A stretch of 64,000 nt of DNA. Origin: Actinoalloteichus fjordicus. GTDB lineage: Bacteria > Actinomycetota > Actinomycetes > Mycobacteriales > Pseudonocardiaceae. This document shows positions 27,567-44,045 of this stretch, one piece after another. The DNA lies in the NCBI RefSeq assembly GCF_001941625.1, contig NZ_CP016076.1:5812001-5876000 (forward strand). The letters run 5' to 3'. Numbering within the stretch: position 1 is the first letter of the stretch; each line of letters starts with the position of its first letter. The position numbers and the translations under genes are program-made. The notes under the pieces were generated by a model. The model ran no database searches and was not told where the DNA came from. It was given only the letters and a program-made list of their open reading frames with translations.

Positions 27567-29351
27567 ATGAGTAATCCTTTGGTGGCTGATGTGGTGGATT
27601 CGACGTCGTCGACGTCGGGTCTGTGGCTGGTGGAGTCGGTGAACTCGACCAACACCGCTATTCAGAACGGGGACTGGCTGGAGGCCGGTCTGGGGGTGGC
27701 GGATCTGGTGCTGTCCGCGCTGGACCCGTTCGCGACGATCATCTCCAACGGTGTGGGGTGGCTCATCGAACACGTCGGTCCGCTGTCGGATGCCCTGGAC
27801 GCGTTGGCGGGGAATCCCGACGAGATCCGCTCCCACGCCGACACCTGGTCCAACGTCGCGGGCGAGGTCAACTCCGTCGCCACCGAACTCGGCAACCTCA
27901 TCCAATCCGACGTCACCACCTGGACCGGTACGGCCGCCGACGCCTACCGGACTCGGGCCGCCGACACCGCCAACCTGATCCTCGCCGCCGGAGCAGCAGC
28001 GGGCGGCGCCGCCGAGGGCATCCAGAGGGCGGGCGAGGTCGTCTCGGCCGTGCGTGACGCGGTCCGTGACATCATCGCCGACGTCGTGGGCTCGATGGTC
28101 TCGTGGGCGTTACAGGTCCTGTTCACTCTCGGCATCGGGCTGATCTGGGTGGTTCCCAAGGTCGTCGCCAAGGTCGCTCAGACCGCCGCGACCATCGCGC
28201 AGCTCATCACCAAGCTCACCACCTCCCTCAACCGGCTCAAGCCGCTGCTCGGCACACTCGGCGACGACTTCGCCACCGCCGCCCGAGGCCTCAAAGCCAT
28301 CAAGCCCGGCGACAACCACACCCCCCGCGCACTCGACGCACCCACCACCACCCCGTCCACCGCCCGAAGCACCACCCCCGACACCGGACCACCCATCACC
28401 GCCGACAACAACCCCGCAGACAGCCCACGACCCGACATCGACATCTCGGGCAGCAGCCCCGACGGAGCGACCGGCACCCGAGGCGCACCCGACATCAGCC
28501 CCACCGGCACCCGAAGCCTGCCCGGCGGCAACACCTCGCGCTCACTCGACGACGGCGCCCACGCACTCAGCCCCAGCGCCGCGCGGAGCTTCGACTTCCC
28601 ACCCATGGCGGATCGCAACCCGACCACCCCGGGACTGGGCGGCCCCTCCACCGCGCCAAGCTCACGACCAGCCGGGGCGCAGTGGAACCACTTCACCGAT
28701 GGCTTCGTCCGCAACCCCGCCGACCCCACCGGGCCGCCGTTGAGGCGACGATTCCGCCTCGACACGGTGTACTCGAACACGTTGCGGGACAAAAACGGCC
28801 GAGTGCTGGGAATCGGGTTCCCGACAAAACCGGAGGACGCGAGAAACCAGCAGAACTGGGCGAACGCGGACCACGGTCACTGGGACCGGAAGAACCTCGA
28901 AATCGCCCGCGACCGTCCCCAAGACCGCCCGACCGGGTACTGGGAGCGTACGGCCCCGTGGGCCAATGAGCCGAGTCCTTCCCGCCCGTTCGTCGCGATG
29001 GCTCACTCGGGCGGAAACCAGTTCCAGGTCCAGACTCCGACGGGCCCGAACAACCAGATGGAGAATGTCACGGTCACGCCCGAGTCGTACCACAAGATCG
29101 TGACCAGTAACCGGGTCTACCAGGACCGCATGGCAGGAAACACGAACCCGCTCCTCATGGTGTCGTGCAACACGGGTTCGCCGGGGAGGGAAGGGGCGTC
29201 GAGGTTCGCCAACGCACTACACGAGAGCGGCGACTACCGGTCCGTCTACGCCCCCAACAGCCTGGCGAGCCACGGGGTCATGCCGGACAACAAGGCCGTC
29301 ATCGCGGTGGATCGCGTCAACGGGATTCCCGCCGGATACAACCGGTTCTAG
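27567..29351 (+). CDS. T7SS-linked effector, WXG-type module + clan CD-like peptidase domain (effector 1)
   Basis: A 594-residue protein in three parts. Residues 1-250 are a helical module with a WTG turn near W119 (TTWTGTAADAY) and a hydrophobic helix (~173-197), as in WXG100-type type VII secretion substrates. Residues ~250-370 are a Pro/Thr/Ser-rich linker. The C-terminal ~220 residues hold VLGIGFP, W..., PFVAMAHSGG (His480) and NPLLMVSCNTG (Cys534), followed by FANAL and VYAPNS. The His-Gly-like and Ser-Cys sites, each after a hydrophobic strand, and the FA-xAL/V-xAP tail resemble C80/CPD-type clan CD peptidases. Substrate unknown; likely a contact-dependent toxin. No neighbouring immunity gene recognised. 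Confidence 0.75.
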   Translation: MSNPLVADVVDSTSSTSGLWLVESVNSTNTAIQNGDWLEAGLGVADLVLSALDPFATIISNGVGWLIEHVGPLSDALDALAGNPDEIRSHADTWSNVAGEVNSVATELGNLIQSDVTTWTGTAADAYRTRAADTANLILAAGAAAGGAAEGIQRAGEVVSAVRDAVRDIIADVVGSMVSWALQVLFTLGIGLIWVVPKVVAKVAQTAATIAQLITKLTTSLNRLKPLLGTLGDDFATAARGLKAIKPGDNHTPRALDAPTTTPSTARSTTPDTGPPITADNNPADSPRPDIDISGSSPDGATGTRGAPDISPTGTRSLPGGNTSRSLDDGAHALSPSAARSFDFPPMADRNPTTPGLGGPSTAPSSRPAGAQWNHFTDGFVRNPADPTGPPLRRRFRLDTVYSNTLRDKNGRVLGIGFPTKPEDARNQQNWANADHGHWDRKNLEIARDRPQDRPTGYWERTAPWANEPSPSRPFVAMAHSGGNQFQVQTPTGPNNQMENVTVTPESYHKIVTSNRVYQDRMAGNTNPLLMVSCNTGSPGREGASRFANALHESGDYRSVYAPNSLASHGVMPDNKAVIAVDRVNGIPAGYNRF

Positions 29352-29540
29352 TCTGGAACGGCAGCGACGGCCTTATTCGCTTCCGGCGGGGGCAGGCACG
29401 GGCGGGCGACTGTGGCGGTTCACCACCCGACTGTGCCGGTTGGGATGATGCCGGTTCGCATGCGCGGTGCCTGCCTGCCGAGCAGGCGAGGCGACCACCG
29501 GTGAGGCCTGTCCGCTCGACGGACCGACGAGCATCAGAGA

Positions 29541-30398
29541 GGGATGGACGATGGGTAATCCTTTAGTGGCTGATGTGGTGGACTCGACGACGTCGACGTC
29601 GGGTCTGTCGCTGGTGGAGTCGGTGAACTCCACCAACCAGGCCATCGGCAACGGCGACTGGCTCGAAGCAGGACTCGGCACCGCCGATCTGGTGATGTCC
29701 GCGCTCGATCCCTTCGCCACCATCATCTCCAACGGCGTCGGCTGGCTCATCGAACACGTCGGACCCCTCTCCGACGCCCTCGACTCCCTCGCAGGCAACC
29801 CCGACGAAATCCGCTCCCACGCCGACACCTGGACCAACGTCGCCGACGAAGTCAACTCCGTCTCCACCGAACTCGGCAACCTCATCCAATCCGACGTCAC
29901 CACCTGGACCGGCGCCGCAGCGGATGCCTACCGCGACCGCGCCACCGACACCGCCAACCTCATCCTCGCCGCCGGAACAGCCGCAGGCGGCGCCGCCGAC
30001 GGCATCCACAAAGCAGGCGAAGTCGTCACCGCCGTCCGCGATGCCGTCCGCGACATCATCGCCGACGTCGTCGGCTCCATGGTCTCCTGGGCCTTACAGG
30101 TCCTCTTCACCCTCGGCATCGGACTCATCTGGGTCATCCCCAAAGTCGTCGCCAAAGTCGCCCAAACCGCCGCCACCATCGCCCAACTCATCACCAAACT
30201 CACCACCTCCATGTCCAAACTCACCCCCCTCCTCAAAAAACTCGGCGACGACTTCAGCACCGCCACCAACGGCCTCAAAAACATCAAAACCAGCAACAAC
30301 CACAACGCCCGCAGCCTCGACGCACCACCCGTCACCCCCAACGGCACCCGAGGCAGCGGCAGCGGCGACACCGGGCCCCCCATCACACCCAACGGCAC
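29541..30398 (+). repeat. Direct repeat copy 1 (~858 bp)
   Basis: Reads as identical to 36912-37769, from 10 bp before the ATG through the WXG module and the first part of the linker. Offset 7371 bp. Confidence 0.9.
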
Positions 30399-31296
30399 AG
30401 ACGGGCCGACCAACAGAGGCGGCGGCGGAGGCGCACCAGGCGTCTCGCCCAGCAACACCACGCCGGACACCTCCCGAGGCGCCCCCGACATCAACACCTC
30501 CGGCAGCGTCAATCAGCCCCGGTCGGCCCCCGGCAGCACGATGCCCGGTCTCGGCGGAAACCCGACCACTCCGGCGGCGCCCACCCCCACGCCCGGCCCC
30601 TGGGGGGCCAATCCGCCCACCATCACCGGAAAACCGTCGCTGAGCTTCGGCCTCTTCAGCAAGAACTTCTCCGCCGACAAGGTCACCGAGCACACGATCA
30701 AGGACAGGTACGGCCGGCCGCTCGGCGTCGGTTTCCCGTCACAGAAGCAAGACGTGAAATCCGATACGATCTGGGGTGCGAAACCAAATCAGGACTGGAA
30801 GTTCAAATACGAACAGAGGCCACACGACTCGAAGAATCCGAACGCCACGAAGCCGGCCCCGTGGGCGATCAACTCCCCACTCGGATCGACACCGTTCCCC
30901 GCGCTGGCACATGGCAGCAAGGACAAGTTCATCGTCGAGGCCGCGATCGGGCCCGGCGGGGCGAAGATGGACGTCGAACTCTCCGGCGCCGAATATCACA
31001 AGCTCCTCAGCAATCACCAGACGTACAAGAACGCCATGAACGGGAATGAGAACCCGCTTCTCCTGGTGTCCTGTGATACCGGATCAGGCAAGGCAGGCAA
31101 GGACTTCGCCGATGCACTCGGCAAGAGCAACGACTCGAAGCACGACGTCTATGCGCCGACGACGACGGCGTGGGCCAACGCGACCGCCAGCGGTCCTGGC
31201 GGTGCGACCGATCGTCCGCACGCGACGTCAAGCCTCGAGGTCGACGCCGAGAGCAGCAGCGCGCCGGGACGGTTCAACAGATACCCGCATCAATGA
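29551..31296 (+). CDS. T7SS-linked effector, WXG-type module + clan CD-like peptidase domain (effector 2)
   Basis: A 581-residue paralogue of the effector at 27567, with the same layout: module 1-245 (WTG at 119-121, hydrophobic helix ~173-197), Gly/Pro/Thr-rich linker, then the C-terminal domain with GRPLGVGFP, PFPALAHGS (His454) and NPLLLVSCDTG (Cys508), FADAL and VYAPTTT. His-to-Cys spacing is 54 residues, the same as in the other two copies. The first ~850 bp read as identical to the gene at 36922, and 89 bp within the peptidase domain (30917-31005) are also identical, while the rest diverges. The frame extends upstream to 29467, but ATG 29551 matches the other copies and has GGGATGGA before it. 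Confidence 0.75.
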   Translation: MGNPLVADVVDSTTSTSGLSLVESVNSTNQAIGNGDWLEAGLGTADLVMSALDPFATIISNGVGWLIEHVGPLSDALDSLAGNPDEIRSHADTWTNVADEVNSVSTELGNLIQSDVTTWTGAAADAYRDRATDTANLILAAGTAAGGAADGIHKAGEVVTAVRDAVRDIIADVVGSMVSWALQVLFTLGIGLIWVIPKVVAKVAQTAATIAQLITKLTTSMSKLTPLLKKLGDDFSTATNGLKNIKTSNNHNARSLDAPPVTPNGTRGSGSGDTGPPITPNGTDGPTNRGGGGGAPGVSPSNTTPDTSRGAPDINTSGSVNQPRSAPGSTMPGLGGNPTTPAAPTPTPGPWGANPPTITGKPSLSFGLFSKNFSADKVTEHTIKDRYGRPLGVGFPSQKQDVKSDTIWGAKPNQDWKFKYEQRPHDSKNPNATKPAPWAINSPLGSTPFPALAHGSKDKFIVEAAIGPGGAKMDVELSGAEYHKLLSNHQTYKNAMNGNENPLLLVSCDTGSGKAGKDFADALGKSNDSKHDVYAPTTTAWANATASGPGGATDRPHATSSLEVDAESSSAPGRFNRYPHQ

Positions 31297-31358
31297 CGTC
31301 CTTCGGCGACAACACCCCGCAGCCCGCCTGACCTGGATGAAGATCGGAGCACAGCACG

Positions 31359-34300
31359 GTGACCGACAACGAGCCCGCCACAGGCCTGCAGCACTGGGTG
31401 GTTCTTCCTTCCCCCAGCTGGCAGCACGTCGAAGGCGAGTCACCGCCGCCGGACGAGATCGTCGGGGCCTGGCCGTACGACGGGCAGGGCGGTTTCGGCG
31501 TCTTCGAGCCGAATCCCGGCTATGTGCCCAGTGGTCCCGAGATCCCGACGGACCCCGCCGACGCGGCGATCCGGCTCGCGCTCGGCGGCGATGAATCGGC
31601 CACCGGGGAGATCGTGCCGCTGCTGTGGAACGCGGCCTTGGAGACGCCGGTGGCCGACGACGGCACACCGCTGATCGCGACGTCTCCCGACGGCGTGCCT
31701 TGTGTGGTGGTCACCACCGCCGCGATCAACCGAGGCCGCGTCGAGGCTCCGCTCTGGCGGCGGGTGACGGCCGGTGAACTCGTCGAACTCCTTCCCCCCG
31801 AGACCGATCTGTTCATCAACCCGGACGGCCCCGCCGCGATGCGGCTGGACGCCGTCGCCTTCCGCGAGGGAGCGCCTGCGGGCGAGCAGGCCGCGGGCCT
31901 CGGCTCCGCCGACATGTTCGGTCTGCCGGACGGGCCGCGCAGCAGGGCCGTGCCGCAGGACGGCCGGTTCTGCGAATCCGGCCCGGTGGACGTCGTTACC
32001 GGGGACGTGATCCTCAGCCAGACCGATCTCGACCTGCCAGGCTGGCTGCCGGTGGTGCTGACCCGCACCCATGTCTCGTCCTACCGGGCAGGCCGCCTCT
32101 TCGGCAGTTCCTGGGCGTCCACCCTGGACCAGCGCCTCGAGCACCACGTCAACGGACTCCGGTACTTCTCCCCCGACGGCATGGTGCTGCACTACCCGAC
32201 GCTGGAGGCGGGCGTGCCCGCCCTGCCGCTGGCGGGCCCCCGACTGCCGCTGACGCTGACGGACAGCGGTGTCCACGTGTTGGGCGATCGGGCGGAGGGC
32301 AGGCTGTCGTACTTCGCCGCGGTGCCCGGCAGCGAGGACCGCCTCCCGTTGATCTCCGTCGAGCACCAGAGCGGGCACCACATCGCGATCGAGCACGACG
32401 CCCAGGGCATGCCCGCAGCTCTCCGGCACAGTGCGGGTCAACGCGTGTCGATCGACATCGCCGACGGGCGGATCAGCAGGCTGCGACTGCACGCGAACGA
32501 CGATGCCGAACCACTGACGATCACCCGCTACGGCTACGACGAGGCGGGCAACCTCACCGAGGTGATCAACTCGGCCGGGTCGGCGTACCGGTTCGCCTAC
32601 GACGCCGAACAGCGCATCACCGGCAGGCAGGACCGGGCCGCGACCTGGTACCGCTACGAATACGACGCCGAAGGCCGCTGTGTCCGCGCTGCCGGGACCG
32701 AAGACAGGGCCAGCGCCGTCTTCCATCACGACCGCAGGCAGATGTTCACCGCCGTCACCAACGCAGCGGGCGCGACGAGGGCTTATCAGTACAACGACCT
32801 CGGTCAGGTCGTCGCCGTGACCGACGCTCTCGGCAACGCCACCCGCTTCGAGTGGAACCGCCACGATCAGCTGATCACCGACATCGGCCCGCTCGGAAAC
32901 ATCACCCGCCGGGAATGGGATGCGGACGGCAATCTCGTCGCCGTCCTCCACCCCGACGGAGGACGCACCGAGACCGGCTACGACCAACTCGGCAGGCCGG
33001 TCCGCGTCACCCGACCGGACGGGGCGAGCCACCACTGGCAGTACGACGGACTCGGCAGGCTCCTGTCAGAGACCGACGCTGCGGGCGCGACGACCGCCTA
33101 CGACTACGACGAGGTCGAGCGGGTGACGACCATCCGCAACGCCCTCGGCGGTGTGACCCGTCTGCTCCGCGACGCACGCGGCCTGCTGACCGCACGGATC
33201 GACGAACTGGGCAACCGGACGAACTACGAACTGGACGCGCTGGGGCGGGTCGTCTCCGCCACCGACGCCGCGGGGAACGTCACCCGCTACGGATGGACCA
33301 TGGAGAACCTGGCCGCGTGGGTGACCGAGCCCAACGGCCGAACCGAGCGCTGGAGTCACGACGGCGAGGGCAACTGCGTCGAGCACGTCGATGCCCTCGG
33401 CCAGGTTCATCGCGCGGAGTACGGGGCGTTCGGCCTGGTGACGGCTCGGATCGCGCCGGACGGCGCCCGCACCGGCTATGACTACGATTCCGAGCTGCAG
33501 CTGGTCTCGGTGACCGACCCGGCAGGCCTGACGTGGACCTATGACTACGACGCAGCCGGGAACCTGGTTGCCGAGACGGACTTCGACGGGCGGACGCTGC
33601 ACTACGGATTCGACGCGGCGGGCCGGATCGTCGCCAAGGCCAATGCAGTCGGCCAGACGATCACCTATGTCCGGAACGCGGCAGGCGACATCATCGAGGA
33701 GGTCGCGGACGGGGTCACCACCGTCTACACCCGGGATGCGGCAGGCCGGGTGATCGGCACCAGCAGCCCCGGCGTGCAGACCTCGTTCGAGTACGACGGC
33801 CTCGGCAGGGTGATCTCCCAGACCTGCAACGGCGCGACGAGCACCTTCGGCTACGACGCGGTCGGCCGCCGAGTGCGGCGGACCACCCCGGTGGGTCTCG
33901 AGAGCGTCTGGAGCTACGACGCGGCAGGCCGCCCGGCAAGCCTGACCGTCGACGGGCACACGATCTCTTTGGAGCACGACGCTTCGGGCGACCAGACCCG
34001 CCGGGCCCTCGGCCCGAACGCCACGCTCACCCAGACCTGGGAGGGGAACCAGCGGCTCCGTTCCCAGGCGTTGACGACGGCGATCCTGGTCGACGGCGTG
34101 GCCAGGGGGTCGTCGGTCTCGCAGCGTCGCGCCTATCTGTATCAGGCGGACGGCGGGGTCGTCGCGGTGACCGACCAGCTCTCCGGGCCTCGCGAATTCA
34201 CCCTCGACACCCGCGGGCGGGTCACGGCCGTCGAGGCCTCGGGCTGGACCGAGGCGTACGCCTACGACCACATCGGCAACATCACCCATGCCGACGTCGC

Positions 34301-35396
34301 CGACACCGACGAGCGGCCGGACGTCGCCGCCATGACCCGAATGCCCTCGACGACCAGTCAGGGACCTCGCACCTACACCGGCACCTTGATCACCCGCGCG
34401 GGAAGCGTCGCCTACGAGCACGATGCGCAGGGTCGCGTGGTGGCGCGGAAGGTGACCCGAGACGGCGAGGTCGTCGAGGAATGGCACTACGCCTGGGACT
34501 CCTTCGATCGACTCACCGACGTGCTCACCCCGAAGGACGATCACTGGCGCTACCGCTACGACACCGAGGGCAGGCGCATCCGCAAGGAGCGGCGCAGCGT
34601 GGGACTGGACGGCCTGGAAGCGGGTACGGTCCTGGAGCGAGTCGACTTCAGCTGGGACGGCGACCGGATCGTCGAACAGATCCACACCGCCCCGAACTCG
34701 GACGGCGAGCTGGTCAGCCTGGTCATCGCCTGGGACTGGGAACCGGGCGGCTTCCGCGTCCTGACCCAGTTCGAACGCACCACCGCCGTCGGGCCGGACG
34801 CGGCTGAGCAGGACTGGGTGGGCGAACGGTTCCATCACATCGTCACCGACCTGGCCGGCTCCCCCGCAGAACTCGTCGACGAGGACGGCAGCATCGCCTG
34901 GCACGCCCATCACACGCTGTGGGGCAGGCATCTCGGCGGGGACGCCGCACCGCCGACGCCGCTGCGTTTCCCCGGTCAGTACCACGACGACGAGTCCGGC
35001 CTGCACTACCACCGGCACCGCTACTACGACCCGACCACCGGCCGCTATCTGAGTAAGAATCCGCGCGGGCTCGGACCGGCGCCCAATCCCTACAGCTACG
35101 TCGCCAACCCGGTGGTCGCCAGCGACCCGTCGGGCTTGGCAGGCGATCAACAGGGCGGTGAGAACCCGGCTCCCGTCGGCGACCCCCGTGGGCGCACGGG
35201 CAGCGGATCGTCCGGCGGCACGGAGATCGTCAGCCTGCCGCAGCGCGCGCCGTCGGTCGGTCCGGATGCGGGCGGCAGGCCCACTCGGCCCACAGCTCCG
35301 CAGCTGCTCTGTCTGCCTGCGCACATCACGTCGGACCCGAAGTACGCAGGCTATCTGGGTGCGAGTCCCGACGTCACGGCGTCGAGCCCGAGCTGA
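31359..35396 (+). CDS. RHS-repeat protein with N-terminal T7SS-associated domain
   Basis: A 1345-residue RHS protein. Residues 1-175 are a T7SS-associated (SseB-like) domain: HWVVLPSPSW, EIVGAWP, FEPNPGY-PSGPE-PTDPADAAIRLAL, DGVPCVVVTTA, FINPDGPAAMRL. From ~204 (SGPVDVVTGDVIL) comes the DUF6531 start of the RHS shell, then about twenty YD repeats, ending with the core motif GQYHDDESGLHYHRHRYYDP (residues ~1206-1226). The usual DPLGL boundary is changed to NPRGL. The last ~85 residues are low-complexity with no toxin fold, so this cage appears toxin-less. GTG 31359 has GGAGC upstream. Follows effector 2 after 62 bp, probably one operon. Confidence 0.85.
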   Translation: MTDNEPATGLQHWVVLPSPSWQHVEGESPPPDEIVGAWPYDGQGGFGVFEPNPGYVPSGPEIPTDPADAAIRLALGGDESATGEIVPLLWNAALETPVADDGTPLIATSPDGVPCVVVTTAAINRGRVEAPLWRRVTAGELVELLPPETDLFINPDGPAAMRLDAVAFREGAPAGEQAAGLGSADMFGLPDGPRSRAVPQDGRFCESGPVDVVTGDVILSQTDLDLPGWLPVVLTRTHVSSYRAGRLFGSSWASTLDQRLEHHVNGLRYFSPDGMVLHYPTLEAGVPALPLAGPRLPLTLTDSGVHVLGDRAEGRLSYFAAVPGSEDRLPLISVEHQSGHHIAIEHDAQGMPAALRHSAGQRVSIDIADGRISRLRLHANDDAEPLTITRYGYDEAGNLTEVINSAGSAYRFAYDAEQRITGRQDRAATWYRYEYDAEGRCVRAAGTEDRASAVFHHDRRQMFTAVTNAAGATRAYQYNDLGQVVAVTDALGNATRFEWNRHDQLITDIGPLGNITRREWDADGNLVAVLHPDGGRTETGYDQLGRPVRVTRPDGASHHWQYDGLGRLLSETDAAGATTAYDYDEVERVTTIRNALGGVTRLLRDARGLLTARIDELGNRTNYELDALGRVVSATDAAGNVTRYGWTMENLAAWVTEPNGRTERWSHDGEGNCVEHVDALGQVHRAEYGAFGLVTARIAPDGARTGYDYDSELQLVSVTDPAGLTWTYDYDAAGNLVAETDFDGRTLHYGFDAAGRIVAKANAVGQTITYVRNAAGDIIEEVADGVTTVYTRDAAGRVIGTSSPGVQTSFEYDGLGRVISQTCNGATSTFGYDAVGRRVRRTTPVGLESVWSYDAAGRPASLTVDGHTISLEHDASGDQTRRALGPNATLTQTWEGNQRLRSQALTTAILVDGVARGSSVSQRRAYLYQADGGVVAVTDQLSGPREFTLDTRGRVTAVEASGWTEAYAYDHIGNITHADVADTDERPDVAAMTRMPSTTSQGPRTYTGTLITRAGSVAYEHDAQGRVVARKVTRDGEVVEEWHYAWDSFDRLTDVLTPKDDHWRYRYDTEGRRIRKERRSVGLDGLEAGTVLERVDFSWDGDRIVEQIHTAPNSDGELVSLVIAWDWEPGGFRVLTQFERTTAVGPDAAEQDWVGERFHHIVTDLAGSPAELVDEDGSIAWHAHHTLWGRHLGGDAAPPTPLRFPGQYHDDESGLHYHRHRYYDPTTGRYLSKNPRGLGPAPNPYSYVANPVVASDPSGLAGDQQGGENPAPVGDPRGRTGSGSSGGTEIVSLPQRAPSVGPDAGGRPTRPTAPQLLCLPAHITSDPKYAGYLGASPDVTASSPS

Positions 35397-35462
35397 ATCC
35401 GATGCGGCCCTCCGCGCGGCACGAGGGTCGAGCATGATCGGACAGGACGCGTCCCGCAGTGT

Positions 35463-35494
35463 CCGGACGGCTCGGGTTGATGCGAGCCGTCCGG
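35463..35494. terminator. Hairpin after RHS gene 1
   Basis: CCGGACGGCTC and GAGCCGTCCGG, 11-bp perfect stem with 10-nt loop, 67 bp after the RHS stop. Confidence 0.6.
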
Positions 35495-35569
35495 CCGCAG
35501 GACGTCCGGTGAGCGGAGCCTCCGCGGACGGCGCCAGGGTCGGACGGCGCCATGTCGGTAGGCAACGAG

Positions 35570-35597
35570 CGAACGGGCAGCGTGGTCTGCCCGTTCG
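35570..35597. terminator. Second hairpin downstream of RHS gene 1
   Basis: CGAACGGGCA and TGCCCGTTCG, 10-bp perfect stem, 8-nt loop. May be a back-up terminator. Confidence 0.45.
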
Positions 35598-35998
35598 GGC
35601 AGCCCTGAGTGCGACTGGGCACGGTGTCTGTCGCCACCGGATTCGGATACGGCAGGATCAGCGGCTGCGGGAGGCCGTCGGCGGCGCTCCTGGAGCCACT
35701 GAATCGTCCGAGGCCTCGCACAGTGTCGGAGGGAATTCGATGATCCGGCCGCACGCAGACAGGAGTCGGCCGCCTGCCTCTGCCGGTACGGCGGCGACGG
35801 GCTCTGACCAGGACTCGGCAGGGCCGATCCGGTCGGCCGATCCTCGGCTCTCCCGCCCTGTTCTGGTTCTCGCCCGCGTGCCACGAGAACACGCCCGGCA
35901 CGGCCGCCGAGGGCAGCACAGTCCACCGAGGAAATCCGTGTCGTACCCGGCCACGCCGACGGCGGGTGGGCACACCGACGAGGAACGAGCACGACGCG
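35598..35998. other. Gene-free stretch in the toxin island
   Basis: Together with 35397-35597 this leaves ~600 bp without a recognisable gene, where an immunity gene would be expected. Open frames are Arg/Pro-rich. Confidence 0.4.
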
Positions 35999-36580
35999 GT
36001 GAATGATCACAGGCCCGAGACGACTGCGAATGATCGGCAGAACTGGGTGGTGCTGACGTCGCCGGAGTGGCGACGTCGAGACGACACGACAGCGCCGCCC
36101 CCCGAGGCGATCGTGGGTGCGTGGCCGCTCGGCGTGGGCGAAGGTGTGGGTCTGTTCGAGCCGAATCCCGGGTATCAGCCGAGTGGGCCGGAGGTGCCGA
36201 CTGATCCGGTGGATGCGGCGATCCGGTTGGCGTTGACCGGTGATGTGACGGCGAGCGACCAGATCGTCCCGCTCTTGTGGAACGCCGTTCTGGAGGTTCC
36301 GGTGGCACAGGACGGGAGTCCGCTGGTGGCGGCGGCGCCGGACGGCGTGCCCTGTGTCGTCGTGGCGACCGCTGCGGTGAACCGGGCTCGGATCGAGGCG
36401 CCGTTGTGGCGTCGGGTGTCGGCGGCGGAGCTGGTGGGCCTGCTACCCGCAGCGACGGACGTGTTGATCAACCCGGACGGCCCGGCGGCCATGCGCCTGC
36501 TCGCCGACATCTTCCGCGACGGCCCGCCACCGGATGCGGAGCCTGCGGGACCGGGGATCACCGATCGGCTCGACATGTGA
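35999..36580 (+). CDS. Type VII secretion system-associated protein (stand-alone)
   Basis: A 193-residue single-domain protein, about two-thirds identical to residues 1-190 of the RHS protein at 31359: QNWVVLTSPEW, AIVGAWPLG, FEPNPGYQPSGPEVPTDP, DAAIRLAL, DGVPCVVVATA, LWRRVSAAEL, INPDGPAAMRL. The pattern is that of the T7SS-associated/SseB-like family common in actinobacteria. It is likely a cytoplasmic adaptor, chaperone or immunity factor for the WXG-module effectors. GTG 35999 is chosen by alignment with the fused copy and has GAGGAACG upstream; GTG 35966 is the alternative. Located 341 bp before effector 3. Confidence 0.75.
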   Translation: MNDHRPETTANDRQNWVVLTSPEWRRRDDTTAPPPEAIVGAWPLGVGEGVGLFEPNPGYQPSGPEVPTDPVDAAIRLALTGDVTASDQIVPLLWNAVLEVPVAQDGSPLVAAAPDGVPCVVVATAAVNRARIEAPLWRRVSAAELVGLLPAATDVLINPDGPAAMRLLADIFRDGPPPDAEPAGPGITDRLDM

Positions 36581-36911
36581 GGACTGTCGTCGTGGCGAGT
36601 TCCCCCTTGCCTGCGGCCGCAAGGGCACTCAGTCTCGCCGCCGATCGTCGAGGCCGTCGCCGGCCTGAACGTCCTCGATGTCGGGTCGGGTCGGATCGGA
36701 TCGACCGGGGCGCCGCTCCCCCTGAGCGGGCCGTGCCGTCGTCGCCGCTGCCCCGATCGCTTCCCTGGATCGCACCCATGACCAGCCCTGCCGGGCCGAC
36801 GACACCCGGCGCGGTTCTCGTCCGAGGTGGCGGGGACGACACACACCACACGTACGACATTGACGGCATGTCCTGATCCGTTGCGGGTGAGACGTGTCTA
36901 TTCGGGAGATG
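36581..36911. other. Gene-free spacer
   Basis: Spacer between the T7SS-associated gene and effector 3. No hairpin or gene recognised. Confidence 0.35.
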
Positions 36912-37769
36912 GGGATGGACGATGGGTAATCCTTTAGTGGCTGATGTGGTGGACTCGACGACGTCGACGTCGGGTCTGTCGCTGGTGGAGTCGGTGAACT
37001 CCACCAACCAGGCCATCGGCAACGGCGACTGGCTCGAAGCAGGACTCGGCACCGCCGATCTGGTGATGTCCGCGCTCGATCCCTTCGCCACCATCATCTC
37101 CAACGGCGTCGGCTGGCTCATCGAACACGTCGGACCCCTCTCCGACGCCCTCGACTCCCTCGCAGGCAACCCCGACGAAATCCGCTCCCACGCCGACACC
37201 TGGACCAACGTCGCCGACGAAGTCAACTCCGTCTCCACCGAACTCGGCAACCTCATCCAATCCGACGTCACCACCTGGACCGGCGCCGCAGCGGATGCCT
37301 ACCGCGACCGCGCCACCGACACCGCCAACCTCATCCTCGCCGCCGGAACAGCCGCAGGCGGCGCCGCCGACGGCATCCACAAAGCAGGCGAAGTCGTCAC
37401 CGCCGTCCGCGATGCCGTCCGCGACATCATCGCCGACGTCGTCGGCTCCATGGTCTCCTGGGCCTTACAGGTCCTCTTCACCCTCGGCATCGGACTCATC
37501 TGGGTCATCCCCAAAGTCGTCGCCAAAGTCGCCCAAACCGCCGCCACCATCGCCCAACTCATCACCAAACTCACCACCTCCATGTCCAAACTCACCCCCC
37601 TCCTCAAAAAACTCGGCGACGACTTCAGCACCGCCACCAACGGCCTCAAAAACATCAAAACCAGCAACAACCACAACGCCCGCAGCCTCGACGCACCACC
37701 CGTCACCCCCAACGGCACCCGAGGCAGCGGCAGCGGCGACACCGGGCCCCCCATCACACCCAACGGCAC
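36912..37769 (+). repeat. Direct repeat copy 2 (~858 bp)
   Basis: Second copy of 29541-30398. Recombination between the two would delete 7371 bp, including effector 2's toxin domain, the first RHS gene and the T7SS-associated gene, leaving a fused effector. Confidence 0.9.
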
Positions 37770-38673
37770 CAGCGGCGGCGGCAGCGGGACGACGGGCGAT
37801 CCGAACAACTTCCAGGGCACGTCACGGTCCGCACCCACGTCGAACATGCCGGGTCTGGGGGGTTCCTCGAGCACTCCCGGCGGCCCGAACATCACCAGTT
37901 CGTCGAACACTCCCGGCAGCTCGAACACCCCGGGCGGCTCGAACGCTCCCGGCTCGTCGAACACTCCTGGCAGCTCGAACGCCGGGCCGTGGGGCTCGAA
38001 CCCACCGACGATCGAGGGCAAACCGAGCTGGGGATTCGGCTTCTGGAACAAGAAGTTCTCCGCCGACCTGGTCACCCAGTACCCCGTGGTGGGTCCGACC
38101 GGAAAACCGATCGGCGTCGGATTCCCCTCGCAATCCGGGGACATCAAGGGCGATCAGGACTGGGGCAAGATGTCGAATCCGAACTGGAAGCAGCAGTACT
38201 TCCAGGATGTCGGCAACACGGGCGATTTCAGGAAGATGACCCCGCAGAATGCTCCGTGGGCGGCCGACCCCACCGTGAATCCTTTCGTCGCACTCGCCCA
38301 CGGCGGCAAGGACAAGTTCATCGTCGAGGCCGCGATCGGGCCCGGCGGGGCGAAGATGGACGTCGAACTCTCCGGCGCCGAATATCACAAGCTCATGACC
38401 AGCAACCGGACTTACCAGGACGCGATGAACGGCAACAACAATCCCTTGGTCCTCGGCTCGTGCGAGGTCGGAGGGGGCCGGGCGAGCCAGGAGTTCGCGG
38501 ACGCGCTGAAAGCCAGCAGTGACAACAAGCACGACGTCTACGCGCCCACCACGACGTTGTTCACGGGCCGGTTGGCCGACAAGAACGATCCCACGCTGGG
38601 CGACGCGGTCTTCTCCCTGGACGATGCGGCCCCGGGCAAGCCGGGAGTCTTCAAGGAGCACAAGCACGCGTAG
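36922..38673 (+). CDS. T7SS-linked effector, WXG-type module + clan CD-like peptidase domain (effector 3)
   Basis: A 583-residue third copy. The module (1-245) reads as identical to that of the gene at 29551. The linker differs and contains a run of short SSNTPG-like repeats (SSNTPGSSNTPGGSNAPG). The C-terminal domain has GKPIGVGFP, PFVALAHGG (His460) and NPLVLGSCEVG (Cys514), FADAL and VYAPTTT; His-Cys spacing is again 54. The tail after VYAPTTT is unrelated to the other copies, so the last ~40 residues vary. Shares an 89-bp identical block (38306-38394) with effector 2 within the catalytic domain. Confidence 0.75.
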   Translation: MGNPLVADVVDSTTSTSGLSLVESVNSTNQAIGNGDWLEAGLGTADLVMSALDPFATIISNGVGWLIEHVGPLSDALDSLAGNPDEIRSHADTWTNVADEVNSVSTELGNLIQSDVTTWTGAAADAYRDRATDTANLILAAGTAAGGAADGIHKAGEVVTAVRDAVRDIIADVVGSMVSWALQVLFTLGIGLIWVIPKVVAKVAQTAATIAQLITKLTTSMSKLTPLLKKLGDDFSTATNGLKNIKTSNNHNARSLDAPPVTPNGTRGSGSGDTGPPITPNGTSGGGSGTTGDPNNFQGTSRSAPTSNMPGLGGSSSTPGGPNITSSSNTPGSSNTPGGSNAPGSSNTPGSSNAGPWGSNPPTIEGKPSWGFGFWNKKFSADLVTQYPVVGPTGKPIGVGFPSQSGDIKGDQDWGKMSNPNWKQQYFQDVGNTGDFRKMTPQNAPWAADPTVNPFVALAHGGKDKFIVEAAIGPGGAKMDVELSGAEYHKLMTSNRTYQDAMNGNNNPLVLGSCEVGGGRASQEFADALKASSDNKHDVYAPTTTLFTGRLADKNDPTLGDAVFSLDDAAPGKPGVFKEHKHA

Positions 38674-39404: not shown

Positions 39405-42400
39405 ATGAGCAATCCGCTCGTGGCCGACGTGGTGGACTCGACGACGTCGACGTCCGGCCTGTCCCTGGTGGAGTCGGTCAACTCCACCAACACCGCCATT
39501 CAGAACGGCGACTGGCTCGAGGCAGGACTCGGCACCGCCGACCTCGTCATGTCCGCACTCGACCCCTTCGCCGCGATCATCTCCAACGGCGTCGGCTGGC
39601 TCATCGAACACGTCGGTCCGCTGTCCGACGCCCTGGACGCGCTGGCCGGGAACCCCGACGAGATCCGCTCCCACGCCGACACCTGGTCCAACGTCGCGGG
39701 CGAGGTCAACTCCGTCGCCACCGAACTCGGGAACCTCATCAAGACCGACGTCTCCACCTGGACGGGTGCGGCCGCCGACGCCTACCGGACTCGGGCCGCC
39801 GACACCGCCAACCTGATCCTCGCCGCCGGAGCAGCCGCAGGCGGCGCCGCCGACGGCATCCAGAAAGCAGGCGAGGTCGTCTCCGCCGTCCGCGATGCCG
39901 TCCGCGACATCATCGCCGACGTCGTCGGCTCCCTCGTCTCCTGGGCACTCCAAGTCCTGTTCACCCTCGGCATCGGACTGATCTGGGTCGTCCCCAAAGT
40001 CGTCGCCAAAGTCGCCCAGACCGCCGCGACCATCGCCCAGCTCACCACGAAACTCGTCGCCTCGATGTGCAGGCTCGCACCGCTGCTCAGGAAGCTCGGC
40101 GACGACTTCGCCTGCGCAGGCAAGGACCTCAAGCGCATCAGGACCGGTGAGAACCATGACGCCCGGAGCAGCGGGCATGCACCAGAGATCGGCACCAGCA
40201 GCAGCCGAGACTCGGGCGAGAGGTCTCATCCGGTGAAAGCCGAGCCGTCTGCGGGCAGTTCGGCGGCCAGGAGCGACGGCGCGGGCGACGGCACTCGTGG
40301 TCTCGCCGGCGACGCCCTGCCGTCGACGACCGGGCGCCCGGGCGCACCGGCGCTTCAGACCGAGGGCAACCGCCCGCAGAACCCGTTCGCGACCGGCACG
40401 GACGCCGACAACCGCAACTGTGTGACCGACCCGGTCGACGTCGGCACCGGCGAGGTCCTGCTCACCGAACTCGACCTGGAGCTGCCAGACCCGTTTCCGC
40501 TGCTGCTCATGCGCACGCACGTCTCCGGTTACCGGGCGGGCCGCCGGTTCGGCTCGAACTGGGCGGCCACCGTCGACCAGCGGCTGGAGGTCGACGACGA
40601 AGGCGTCTGCTTCCTGAGTGAGGACGGCATGATCCTCGTCTACCCACACCCGCGAGGGGACGCCCCGAGCGATCCAGTGGCAGGTCCACGCCACCCGCTG
40701 TCCCGGCGGCAGGACGGCAGTTACACCGTCGAGATGGCAGGCAGGACGCTGTGGTTCGGCACCCGCTCCCCTGGTGCTCCGGGAGTGGTCGAGCTGGATG
40801 CCGTCACCGGCTCCTCAGGCAGCCGGATCGACGTCGAACGCCGCGCCCAAGCCCTGGTGCTCACCCACTCCGCAGGCTACCGGGTCACCCTGCACATCAC
40901 CCACGACCGCGTCACCGAGCTGCACGTGCTCGGCCGTGAGAACACCGCCGAGCCTGCCGACGTGCTCGTCCTGCGCTACGGCTACGACGACCGGGGCAGG
41001 CTGGCCGAGCTGATCAACTCCTCCGGGCTGGCCACCCGGTTCGACTATGACGATGCGGGCAGGCTCACCGGCTGGCGGGACCGCACCGGCACCCGGTATC
41101 GCTACGAGTACGACATCGAGGGGCGCTGTGTGCGCACCGTCGGCCCGGACGGCAGGCTGAGCAGCGCGTTCTCTTATGACGCCGACCGCCGCACCACCGC
41201 GTTCACCGACTCGCTCGGCGCGGTCACCGTCTACCAGCTCAACGAGCGATACCAGACGGTCCGGCAGACCGATCCGCTCGGCCACACCACGGTGTCCACC
41301 TGGGACTCGCGGCACCGGCTGCTCGCTCGCACCGATCCATTGGGCCACACCACCCGCTTCGAATACCGTTCCGACGGCTCCCCGAGCGTGGTCGTCCGGC
41401 CGGACGGCAGCCGAGTGGCGGTCCGGTGCGGCGCCGAACTGGACATCGAAGTGGTTCAGGACGGCAGGGTCTGGCGGCGCAGCTATGCGGGAGCCGACCG
41501 GCCGGACCCCTTCCTCACTCCGCTCGGCGTGTCCACCGCGATCGGGCTGCCGGCAGGCACGCCAGGCCCTGCCGCGGTGGGCGGCGGTGCCGGGGCGGGC
41601 GGCGCAGCCCCGGTGCCGCGCGACATGTTCGGGCGCCCGACGATGGTGCCGGACCCTGCGGGCACGCTGGCACAGGCAGGGTGGACCGTCGAGGGCAGGC
41701 TGGGTTGGCGAGCTGCCTCTGCAGGCCGCGAACAGTGGCGTTACGACCCGGAGGGCAACGAGGTCGAGTACCGCGACTCGGCGGGACACACTCGACGCAG
41801 GAGCTACGGCCCGTTCGGACTGCTGGTCGCCGAGATCGACCCCACCGGCGCGCGTACCGAGTACGTGCACGACACCGAGTCACGACTGATCGCGGTCACC
41901 AACGCACTCGGGCAGACCTGGCACTACGCCTACGACCCGGTCGGCAGGCTCATCGAGTCGGTCGACTTCGACGGCAGGCCCTCGCGATTCGACTACGACC
42001 CGGCAGGCAGGCTGGTCAGGACCGTCGTCGCCACCGGCGAGGCGGTGGAGTACCGGTATGACGTGCTCGGCAACGTGGTCGAACAGCACACCGCCGCAGG
42101 CATCACCACCTTCGGCTACGACCCGGTGGGCGAACTCGTGTTCGCGACCGCCCCCGGCACCGAACTCACCATCACCCGAGACGAGCGTGGCCGAGTCACC
42201 TCGCAGACCGTCAACGGCCGCACGGTCGCCTTCGACTACGACGAGACCGCCCGGGTCGTCCGCCGTCGCACACCATCCGGAATCCAGTGTCGAACGCGGT
42301 ACGCCGAGGACGGCGAGCCGGTGGCGTTGGACGTCGACGGGCACCCCGTGAACTTCCGGGTGCTCGCCGCCGGAACGGTCCGGCCGGGCACCGGCCACCA

Positions 42401-44045
42401 GCTCGACGCCAACGGTCGAATCACCGAGGTCACCTCGCCCGACGACGTGGAGCGCTACCGGTACGACGCGCTGGGCAACCTCACCACCTCCCCGCTGGCC
42501 GGGCTGCACCGATACGCGGGCACCACACTGGTACAGGCCGGGGCCACCGGTTACCGGCACGACGCACTGGGCAGGCTGGTGCACCGAATCCAGCGTCTCC
42601 CGGCCGGCATGCGGGAATGGCACTACGTCTGGGGGCCGCAAGATCGCCTGCTCGGGGTGGCCACTCCCGACGGCACCCGCTGGCGGTATCACTACGACCC
42701 GCTCGGCCGCCGGATCGCCAAACAGCGCCTGGACTCCTCGGGGGCAGTGGCCGAGCTGGTCGAGTTCGTCTGGGACGGCCCGGTGCTCATCGAGGAGATC
42801 CGCACGGACAGCACAGGCAGCCGCACCACGACCTGGGCGCACGGCCCGACGGACGATCGTCCGCTGGCGCAGGTGGAGACCTCGGCGCAGGCGGGAGTAC
42901 GGCGCTTCTTCACGATCCACACCGATCGGGTGGGCACGCCGGTCGAACTGCGCGACACCGGGGGCGCCACCGCCTGGCGCGCCCACCACACGCTGTGGGG
43001 TGCGCCCCTGGCAAACGCCCCTCGCTTCCCCGCCCACACCCCGCTGCGGTTTCCCGGGCAGTACCACGACCCCGAGAGCGGTTTGAACTACAACGTCTTC
43101 CGCTACTACGACCCGGTGACGGCGCGGTACATCAGCCAGGACCCGCTAGGGCTGGCGCCCTCGGTGAACCCGGTCGCCTACGTGCCCAACCCGCTCGTCG
43201 CCGCAGACCCGCTCGGCCTGACCTGCTCCTCGCCCACCACGAGCCGCTCTCCGACACCGGCGACCCCTGGCGCCGGGATCGCCCCGCAGCTGGTGACCAG
43301 CAGCGGATCGAGGGGGGTGAGCAAGAGCAGGTTCAACCACCCCGACCACGCGATCTCCGCCCCGGATCTGGACCAGGCCGCGAAGGACTATCTGAACAGC
43401 AGCGACAAGAAGCGCGCATCCGAGGCGATGGGAGAACAAGGCGCTCTGACCTACCTTCGAGAGCGCACGGGGCAGAAGATCGATGGTCTGCACACGGCCA
43501 CCGCCGCCACCCCGCACGATCTGCCCACCAACCCGGGACAGGCCTGGTCGCACGCGGTTCGGTTCGACAAGGGGGGTTCGGGTGTCACCGACGTAGCCCA
43601 CTGGGACGGCAGGACGCTGCACGTGATCGAGGCCAAGGGAGGGACCTCGGCGCTGAACACCAGGGAACAGGCCTTCTTCCACAAGGACATCACTGGTGAG
43701 GACGCGCACAGGTTCCTGACCGAGAGCCAGGCCGCGAAACCCGCGTGGCAGCGAATGTCGAGTTCGTCCGAGATCGACGCCGTCAAGAACCAGGACTACA
43801 CGGCGGGCGACCCGATCCCTGCAGTGTTCAAGGACCGCAACACCGGTGCCGCACCGAATCTGATGCAGGGCGGATCGGGCTACCTGACCGATGTCGCGCA
43901 CGCCATGAAGAACTCATCGCTCACCGACGGCCGCAATCTGCTGGGCGAACAGATCCTGCAGCACCAGAACTCGAGGACCATCGACTACGTCCCGGTGCGG
44001 ACACAGGTCTCCGACGGGGGGAGCCCGACCGTGACGGCGGGTTAG
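39405..44045 (+). CDS. RHS polymorphic toxin with WXG-type module and PD-(D/E)XK nuclease tip
   Basis: A 1546-residue toxin. Residues 1-250 are the same export module as in the three effectors (WTGAAADAY, hydrophobic helix). After a linker, DPVDVGTGEVLLTELDLELP (~342) starts the RHS shell, which runs through ~20 YD repeats to the core end GQYHDPESGLNYNVFRYYDP (~1218) and QDPLGL (~1246). The ~300-residue tip has ASEAMGEQGALTYLRER, then D1396 in GVTDVAHWDG and HVIEAKGG with E1409-A-K1411: the D-x12-E-x-K pattern of restriction-like nucleases. It is probably a DNase delivered by a type VII system; the secretion genes are elsewhere. ATG 39405 aligns with the other modules; the frame is open back to 39186. 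Confidence 0.85.
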   Translation: MSNPLVADVVDSTTSTSGLSLVESVNSTNTAIQNGDWLEAGLGTADLVMSALDPFAAIISNGVGWLIEHVGPLSDALDALAGNPDEIRSHADTWSNVAGEVNSVATELGNLIKTDVSTWTGAAADAYRTRAADTANLILAAGAAAGGAADGIQKAGEVVSAVRDAVRDIIADVVGSLVSWALQVLFTLGIGLIWVVPKVVAKVAQTAATIAQLTTKLVASMCRLAPLLRKLGDDFACAGKDLKRIRTGENHDARSSGHAPEIGTSSSRDSGERSHPVKAEPSAGSSAARSDGAGDGTRGLAGDALPSTTGRPGAPALQTEGNRPQNPFATGTDADNRNCVTDPVDVGTGEVLLTELDLELPDPFPLLLMRTHVSGYRAGRRFGSNWAATVDQRLEVDDEGVCFLSEDGMILVYPHPRGDAPSDPVAGPRHPLSRRQDGSYTVEMAGRTLWFGTRSPGAPGVVELDAVTGSSGSRIDVERRAQALVLTHSAGYRVTLHITHDRVTELHVLGRENTAEPADVLVLRYGYDDRGRLAELINSSGLATRFDYDDAGRLTGWRDRTGTRYRYEYDIEGRCVRTVGPDGRLSSAFSYDADRRTTAFTDSLGAVTVYQLNERYQTVRQTDPLGHTTVSTWDSRHRLLARTDPLGHTTRFEYRSDGSPSVVVRPDGSRVAVRCGAELDIEVVQDGRVWRRSYAGADRPDPFLTPLGVSTAIGLPAGTPGPAAVGGGAGAGGAAPVPRDMFGRPTMVPDPAGTLAQAGWTVEGRLGWRAASAGREQWRYDPEGNEVEYRDSAGHTRRRSYGPFGLLVAEIDPTGARTEYVHDTESRLIAVTNALGQTWHYAYDPVGRLIESVDFDGRPSRFDYDPAGRLVRTVVATGEAVEYRYDVLGNVVEQHTAAGITTFGYDPVGELVFATAPGTELTITRDERGRVTSQTVNGRTVAFDYDETARVVRRRTPSGIQCRTRYAEDGEPVALDVDGHPVNFRVLAAGTVRPGTGHQLDANGRITEVTSPDDVERYRYDALGNLTTSPLAGLHRYAGTTLVQAGATGYRHDALGRLVHRIQRLPAGMREWHYVWGPQDRLLGVATPDGTRWRYHYDPLGRRIAKQRLDSSGAVAELVEFVWDGPVLIEEIRTDSTGSRTTTWAHGPTDDRPLAQVETSAQAGVRRFFTIHTDRVGTPVELRDTGGATAWRAHHTLWGAPLANAPRFPAHTPLRFPGQYHDPESGLNYNVFRYYDPVTARYISQDPLGLAPSVNPVAYVPNPLVAADPLGLTCSSPTTSRSPTPATPGAGIAPQLVTSSGSRGVSKSRFNHPDHAISAPDLDQAAKDYLNSSDKKRASEAMGEQGALTYLRERTGQKIDGLHTATAATPHDLPTNPGQAWSHAVRFDKGGSGVTDVAHWDGRTLHVIEAKGGTSALNTREQAFFHKDITGEDAHRFLTESQAAKPAWQRMSSSSEIDAVKNQDYTAGDPIPAVFKDRNTGAAPNLMQGGSGYLTDVAHAMKNSSLTDGRNLLGEQILQHQNSRTIDYVPVRTQVSDGGSPTVTAG

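Follow-up and report, generated by a model that had tools for sequence, protein, structure and literature searches.

In known cysteine protease domains (CPDs), those of MARTX and the large clostridial toxins (peptidase family C80), inositol hexakisphosphate (InsP6) is bound by basic residues and activates the domain, and autocleavage occurs after Leu. Two further described groups bear on the proteins reported here. On polymorphic toxins, Zhang et al. 2012 listed a Tox-Caspase domain with leaders of the type VII secretion system (T7SS; WXG and PPE), judged that some C-terminal versions likely act as toxins, and described a Streptomyces flavogriseus protein carrying an array of caspase-like domains, some copies in such arrays being without catalytic residues (PMC3482391). 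Tce1 and Tce2, effectors of the H3 type VI secretion system (H3-T6SS) of Pseudomonas aeruginosa, have CPD-like folds that make up whole effectors (PMC13323088). In the 64,000 nucleotides (nt) of Actinoalloteichus fjordicus analyzed here (contig NZ_CP016076.1, positions 5,812,001 to 5,876,000; hereafter the window), three genes, E1, E2 and E3, encode proteins in which a WXG/T7SS-type N-terminal module is followed by a linker rich in Pro, Gly, Ser and Thr and then by a C-terminal domain, some 200 residues long, with a predicted CPD/C80 fold. We regard this domain as the probable active part of an exported protease effector, a reading that we consider the best explanation of the whole and hold with moderate confidence.

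A first-pass annotation of the window had already read the three open reading frames as T7SS-linked effectors ending in a clan CD-like His-Cys domain. Re-derivation of the positions placed the frames where that annotation had them and returned the same His and Cys residues, 54 apart in all three (Table 1), and the hydrophobic strands preceding them and the FA-x-AL and VYAPT/N motifs are also present. The shared WXG-type module is recognized by Pfam, with T7SS_signal above the cut-off in E1, E2 and E3 and WXG100_2 in two of the three, and the sole cysteine in each protein is the dyad Cys. The host genome (7.12 Mb, one contig) carries three further copies, E4 at 3.42 Mb and E5/E6 at 1.21 Mb, and both His and Cys are retained in all six.

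What carries the argument for the dyad is how the two residues are lost across homologous sequences. Of the 132 distinct domains in an unselected set covering 41 loci, 20 were gapped at one or both columns; among the others 68 had both residues, 43 had neither, one had His only and none had Cys only, so that in 111 of 112 the two residues shared the same fate. The corresponding Fisher value of 2e-30 is overstated, since the repeats are related, but the pattern in these sequences exceeds chance, and an earlier, narrower profile had given 48 with both, 14 with neither, and 1 and 0 with a single residue (13 of 76 rows gapped). The dead copies keep a fold-marking Trp in 28 of the 31 resolved, though both catalytic letters are gone. 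In an alignment of 23 intact rows (17 genomes, six rows from the host genome, dead copies excluded beforehand), His99 and Cys153 are the sole invariant residues, which suggests that no third position is indispensable in all intact copies; the paired-loss count is independent of this selection, except that the alignment served as its search profile. The His-Cys span is 45 to 62 in 66 of the 68 intact domains and 70 and 89 in the remaining two. The annotation's figure of 45 to 50 for known CPDs was roughly correct, the reported spacings being 45 in TcdB and 50 in Tce2, though 54 in Tce1 (PMC13323088).

The fold itself is predicted. When an AlphaFold2 model of the E3 domain was compared with solved folds, C80/CPD domains outranked the other folds aligned and the first 24 match rows were all of clan CD types; in the model, His99 lies inside a strand (residues 94–101) and Cys153 just after another (148–151). 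One could envision a clan CD fold without protease activity, for instance a binding module or a relative that resembles CHAT or transfers acyl groups. However, CPDs matched the model better than CHAT did, and the joint retention or loss of His and Cys points to a catalytic pair, which leaves this alternative very improbable. The bridge to C80 in sequence is thinner. Pfam Peptidase_C80 (PF11713) does not match the window proteins, and relatives score 19.1 to 21.2 bits against a gathering cut-off of 23.8; because that cut-off is not reached, we name the domain C80-like rather than a C80 member. At E <= 0.01, the same model gave three sub-threshold matches and none besides in the 28 genomes carrying the family, and all three overlap domains scored 4e-24 to 6e-43 by the family profile, suggesting a weak yet specific link; on single members of the family alignment it was visible in 2 of 23 (best E 0.046). 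Taken with the CPD-first structure matches and the joint residue loss, these matches favor the clan CD-like (C80/CPD-type) reading. The 23-row alignment has no invariant Lys or Arg column, and activation through the CPD InsP6 pocket in unaltered form is thus unlikely.

The copies also have mosaic histories. E2 and E3, identical at their 5' ends (Table 1), agree at 71% over the last 630 nt; E2 and its counterpart in A. hoggarensis agree at 89% over the N-terminal 750 nt and 86% over the C-terminal 630 nt. The N-terminus of E4 groups with those of E2/E3 (734/750); at the C-terminus, E1 is the closest to E4 within the six. Judged from these comparisons, a constant N-terminus has been joined to diverging C-termini by recombination, which is the pattern of polymorphic toxins; gene conversion of the N-terminal half would hold the export module uniform while the C-termini diverge. 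The six proteins form a recombining family; given their T7SS-type front end and a C-terminal domain predicted to resemble toxin CPDs in fold, they are likely secreted protease effectors. In A. hoggarensis (L053, G076:C1:5344000-5361000), fragments occupy the positions of E1 and E3, and the E2 counterpart is intact.

Beyond the host, the domain is present in 28 of 249 genomes of its family and in 8 of 394 of its class (the host genome counted in both). In relatives, dead copies occur in giant frames without stops, 5,245 to 28,302 codons long, which are open frames and not gene models. Three of the arrays, L042, L045 and L060, were examined over long stretches; they are packed with the domain, and dead and intact copies often alternate; three pieces from two giant frames (L042 and L052) had no Pfam match.

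The T7SS link proposed by the first-pass annotation is supported by T7SS_signal in E1–E3 and by the neighbors of relatives. In Kibdelosporangium banguiense and Amycolatopsis taiwanensis, genes for EspG, EspC-type and YbaB proteins (by Pfam) are followed by the effector and then by a gene of family NF033532 (by NCBIfam), and the order recurs in Saccharopolyspora kobensis, where the genes were recognized through their likeness to the Kibdelosporangium proteins and the NF033532 gene was named by NCBIfam. From this setting we infer export. The host genome has one EccC match over the cut-off (926.9 bits, at 6.61 Mb), EccC being the sole component searched. A 236-codon frame elsewhere (L075, G000:C1:3867214-3867894) matches the N-terminal module only and adjoins an EspC-type gene.

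NF033532 is a recurrent neighbor of the effectors, and the genome's three copies all adjoin them. Our count covered 29 genomes and their 93 NF033532 matches and took in 47 domain places out of 70 rows, mostly retaining in arrays the copies nearest the 3' end, which biases the count toward short distances. At 24 of the 47 places a same-strand NF033532 gene followed within 5 kb, and at 5 more one preceded within 5 kb; with the downstream limit set at 30 kb the number was 34. Of the 13 others, 5 had a copy just upstream, 4 had none on the contig, 1 had one on the other strand and 3, E4 among these, had one farther off. Because NF033532 takes the place of the WXG-type module in one RHS protein of the window (Table 1), there is a hint that it is an export-side module. 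A check for linked immunity found little room after E1, with only 199 nt to E2 (the longest frame of E2 takes a GTG at 29467 as its start); the linked gene is NF033532, yet it also occurs RHS-fused.

Such neighbors raise the possibility that the domain serves the type VII package as a maturation protease, acting on co-exported partners, e.g., the adjacent RHS or NF033532 proteins. E2 lies just ahead of the NF033532-RHS fusion and E3 ends 731 nt before the WXG-RHS protein, an order repeated in A. hoggarensis; the S. kobensis locus is followed by a protein with the same N-terminus that is RHS-like by eye; and NF033532 recurs as described above. However, E4 stands apart from RHS and NF033532 alike, and the Kibdelosporangium and Amycolatopsis stretches have no RHS-like gene, as judged by eye only, with no family-model scan. 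We therefore consider this alternative quite improbable. The C80-like profile gives no match in the WXG-RHS protein, which has its own C-terminal region beyond the RHS core. In the fusion, NF033532 fills the slot that the WXG-type module fills in that protein.

Table 1. Positions, within the window, of the effector genes, their C80-like domains and neighboring features.
Feature	Position	Strand	Remarks
Effector E1: WXG/T7SS-type N-terminal module + linker + C80-like domain	27567..29351	+	His480, Cys534; 594 aa
E1 C80-like domain	28725..29348	+	dyad codons 29004-29006 (His), 29166-29168 (Cys)
Effector E2	29551..31296	+	His454, Cys508; 581 aa from ATG
E2 C80-like domain	30616..31293	+	dyad codons 30910-30912, 31072-31074
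RHS protein preceded by a fused NF033532-type domain (residues 12-168 of the protein)	31359..35396	+	62 nt after E2
Stand-alone NF033532 type VII secretion system-associated protein	35999..36580	+	upstream of E3
Effector E3	36922..38673	+	His460, Cys514; 583 aa
5' stretch of E3 (848 nt) identical to the 5' stretch of E2	36922..37769	+	divergence begins thereafter
E3 C80-like domain, modelled by AlphaFold2	38005..38670	+	dyad codons 38299-38301, 38461-38463
RHS protein with same WXG/T7SS N-terminal module	39405..44045	+	

Alternatively, the domain may be a self-processing peptidase that cuts the linker after export and so frees itself or sheds the N-terminal module, with any effector activity residing elsewhere or the role being structural. 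Most caspase-like domains of polymorphic toxins were described as releasing peptidases by Zhang et al. (PMC3482391), and the giant-frame arrays of relatives combine active and dead copies. A PGL motif occurs in 7 of 12 linkers (PGV in 1, neither in 4) and in 0 of 2 RHS-type linkers without the domain, and three linkers (Kibdelosporangium, Saccharopolyspora and P0011) contain a single Leu. However, the copies with PGL are mostly kin by descent, that of Kibdelosporangium alone being distant, and the domain is the C-terminal-most part of the stand-alone proteins, in which no additional C-terminal domain was found, leaving no evident cargo. Self-processing as the primary role thus seems to us unlikely, if far from negligible. 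With no other C-terminal domain found, the protease is likely the effector itself.

Under the protease-effector reading that we prefer, the N-terminal module would direct the protein to the EccC-type type VII system of the genome for export, assisted by EspG/EspC-type helpers like those encoded beside the relatives. Once delivered, whether to the outside or into a target cell, the protein would cleave target proteins with the Cys as nucleophile and the His as base, possibly having first cut its own linker after a Leu, as known CPDs do. The module, the His-Cys pair, the single cysteine, the paired loss, the mosaic histories and the NF033532 linkage come from sequence, and the fold comes from prediction. 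The interpretation is accordingly supported for fold and dyad, and we infer toxicity as we do export. An antibacterial role is less certain because Tce1 and Tce2 did not markedly affect growth of E. coli, although Tce2 impaired yeast growth in an active-site-dependent manner (PMC13323088).

Set against described systems, the family differs from the MARTX and clostridial CPDs in that the domain is the C-terminal-most part of a small T7SS-type protein, falls below the Pfam C80 cut-off and has no invariant basic residue suggestive of an InsP6 site. Tce1 and Tce2 are carried in the Hcp ring of a type VI system (PMC13323088), whereas the present family is type VII-linked, and our family profiles found no sequence match to the Tce1/Tce2 system. 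By description rather than alignments, the family resembles Tox-Caspase, which shares an actinobacterial caspase-like C-terminal domain, WXG/PPE leaders and, in a Streptomyces protein, an array with some copies that lack catalytic residues; the NF033532 linkage and the strict co-loss of His and Cys are absent from the available portions of its text (PMC3482391). Our first-pass annotation had called the arrangement an unusual toxin class, and unusual it is, but not unheard of: with Tox-Caspase and its WXG/PPE leaders already predicted, novelty is limited (PMC3482391). Beyond Zhang et al. 2012, the literature searched held no follow-up under the label Tox-Caspase, and the prediction of T7SS caspase-like protease toxins has apparently not been pursued under its name. 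A broader and much more tentative idea, which we put at well below an even chance, is that a toxin's self-processing protease has here been turned into the warhead, combining T7SS-delivered stand-alone CPD-like proteins in which the protease is the only active part, giant frames in relatives, thousands of codons long, where active and dead copies alternate, a dedicated NF033532 partner and an activating cue other than InsP6.

Small size, a single cysteine per protein, a choice of alleles and an evident dead mutant make the proteins of this locus suited to a direct test of the 2012 prediction. If the reading is true, the family would illustrate the route from autoprocessing domain to effector, and NF033532, for which the NCBI name says only "type VII secretion system-associated", would gain a function-linked setting.
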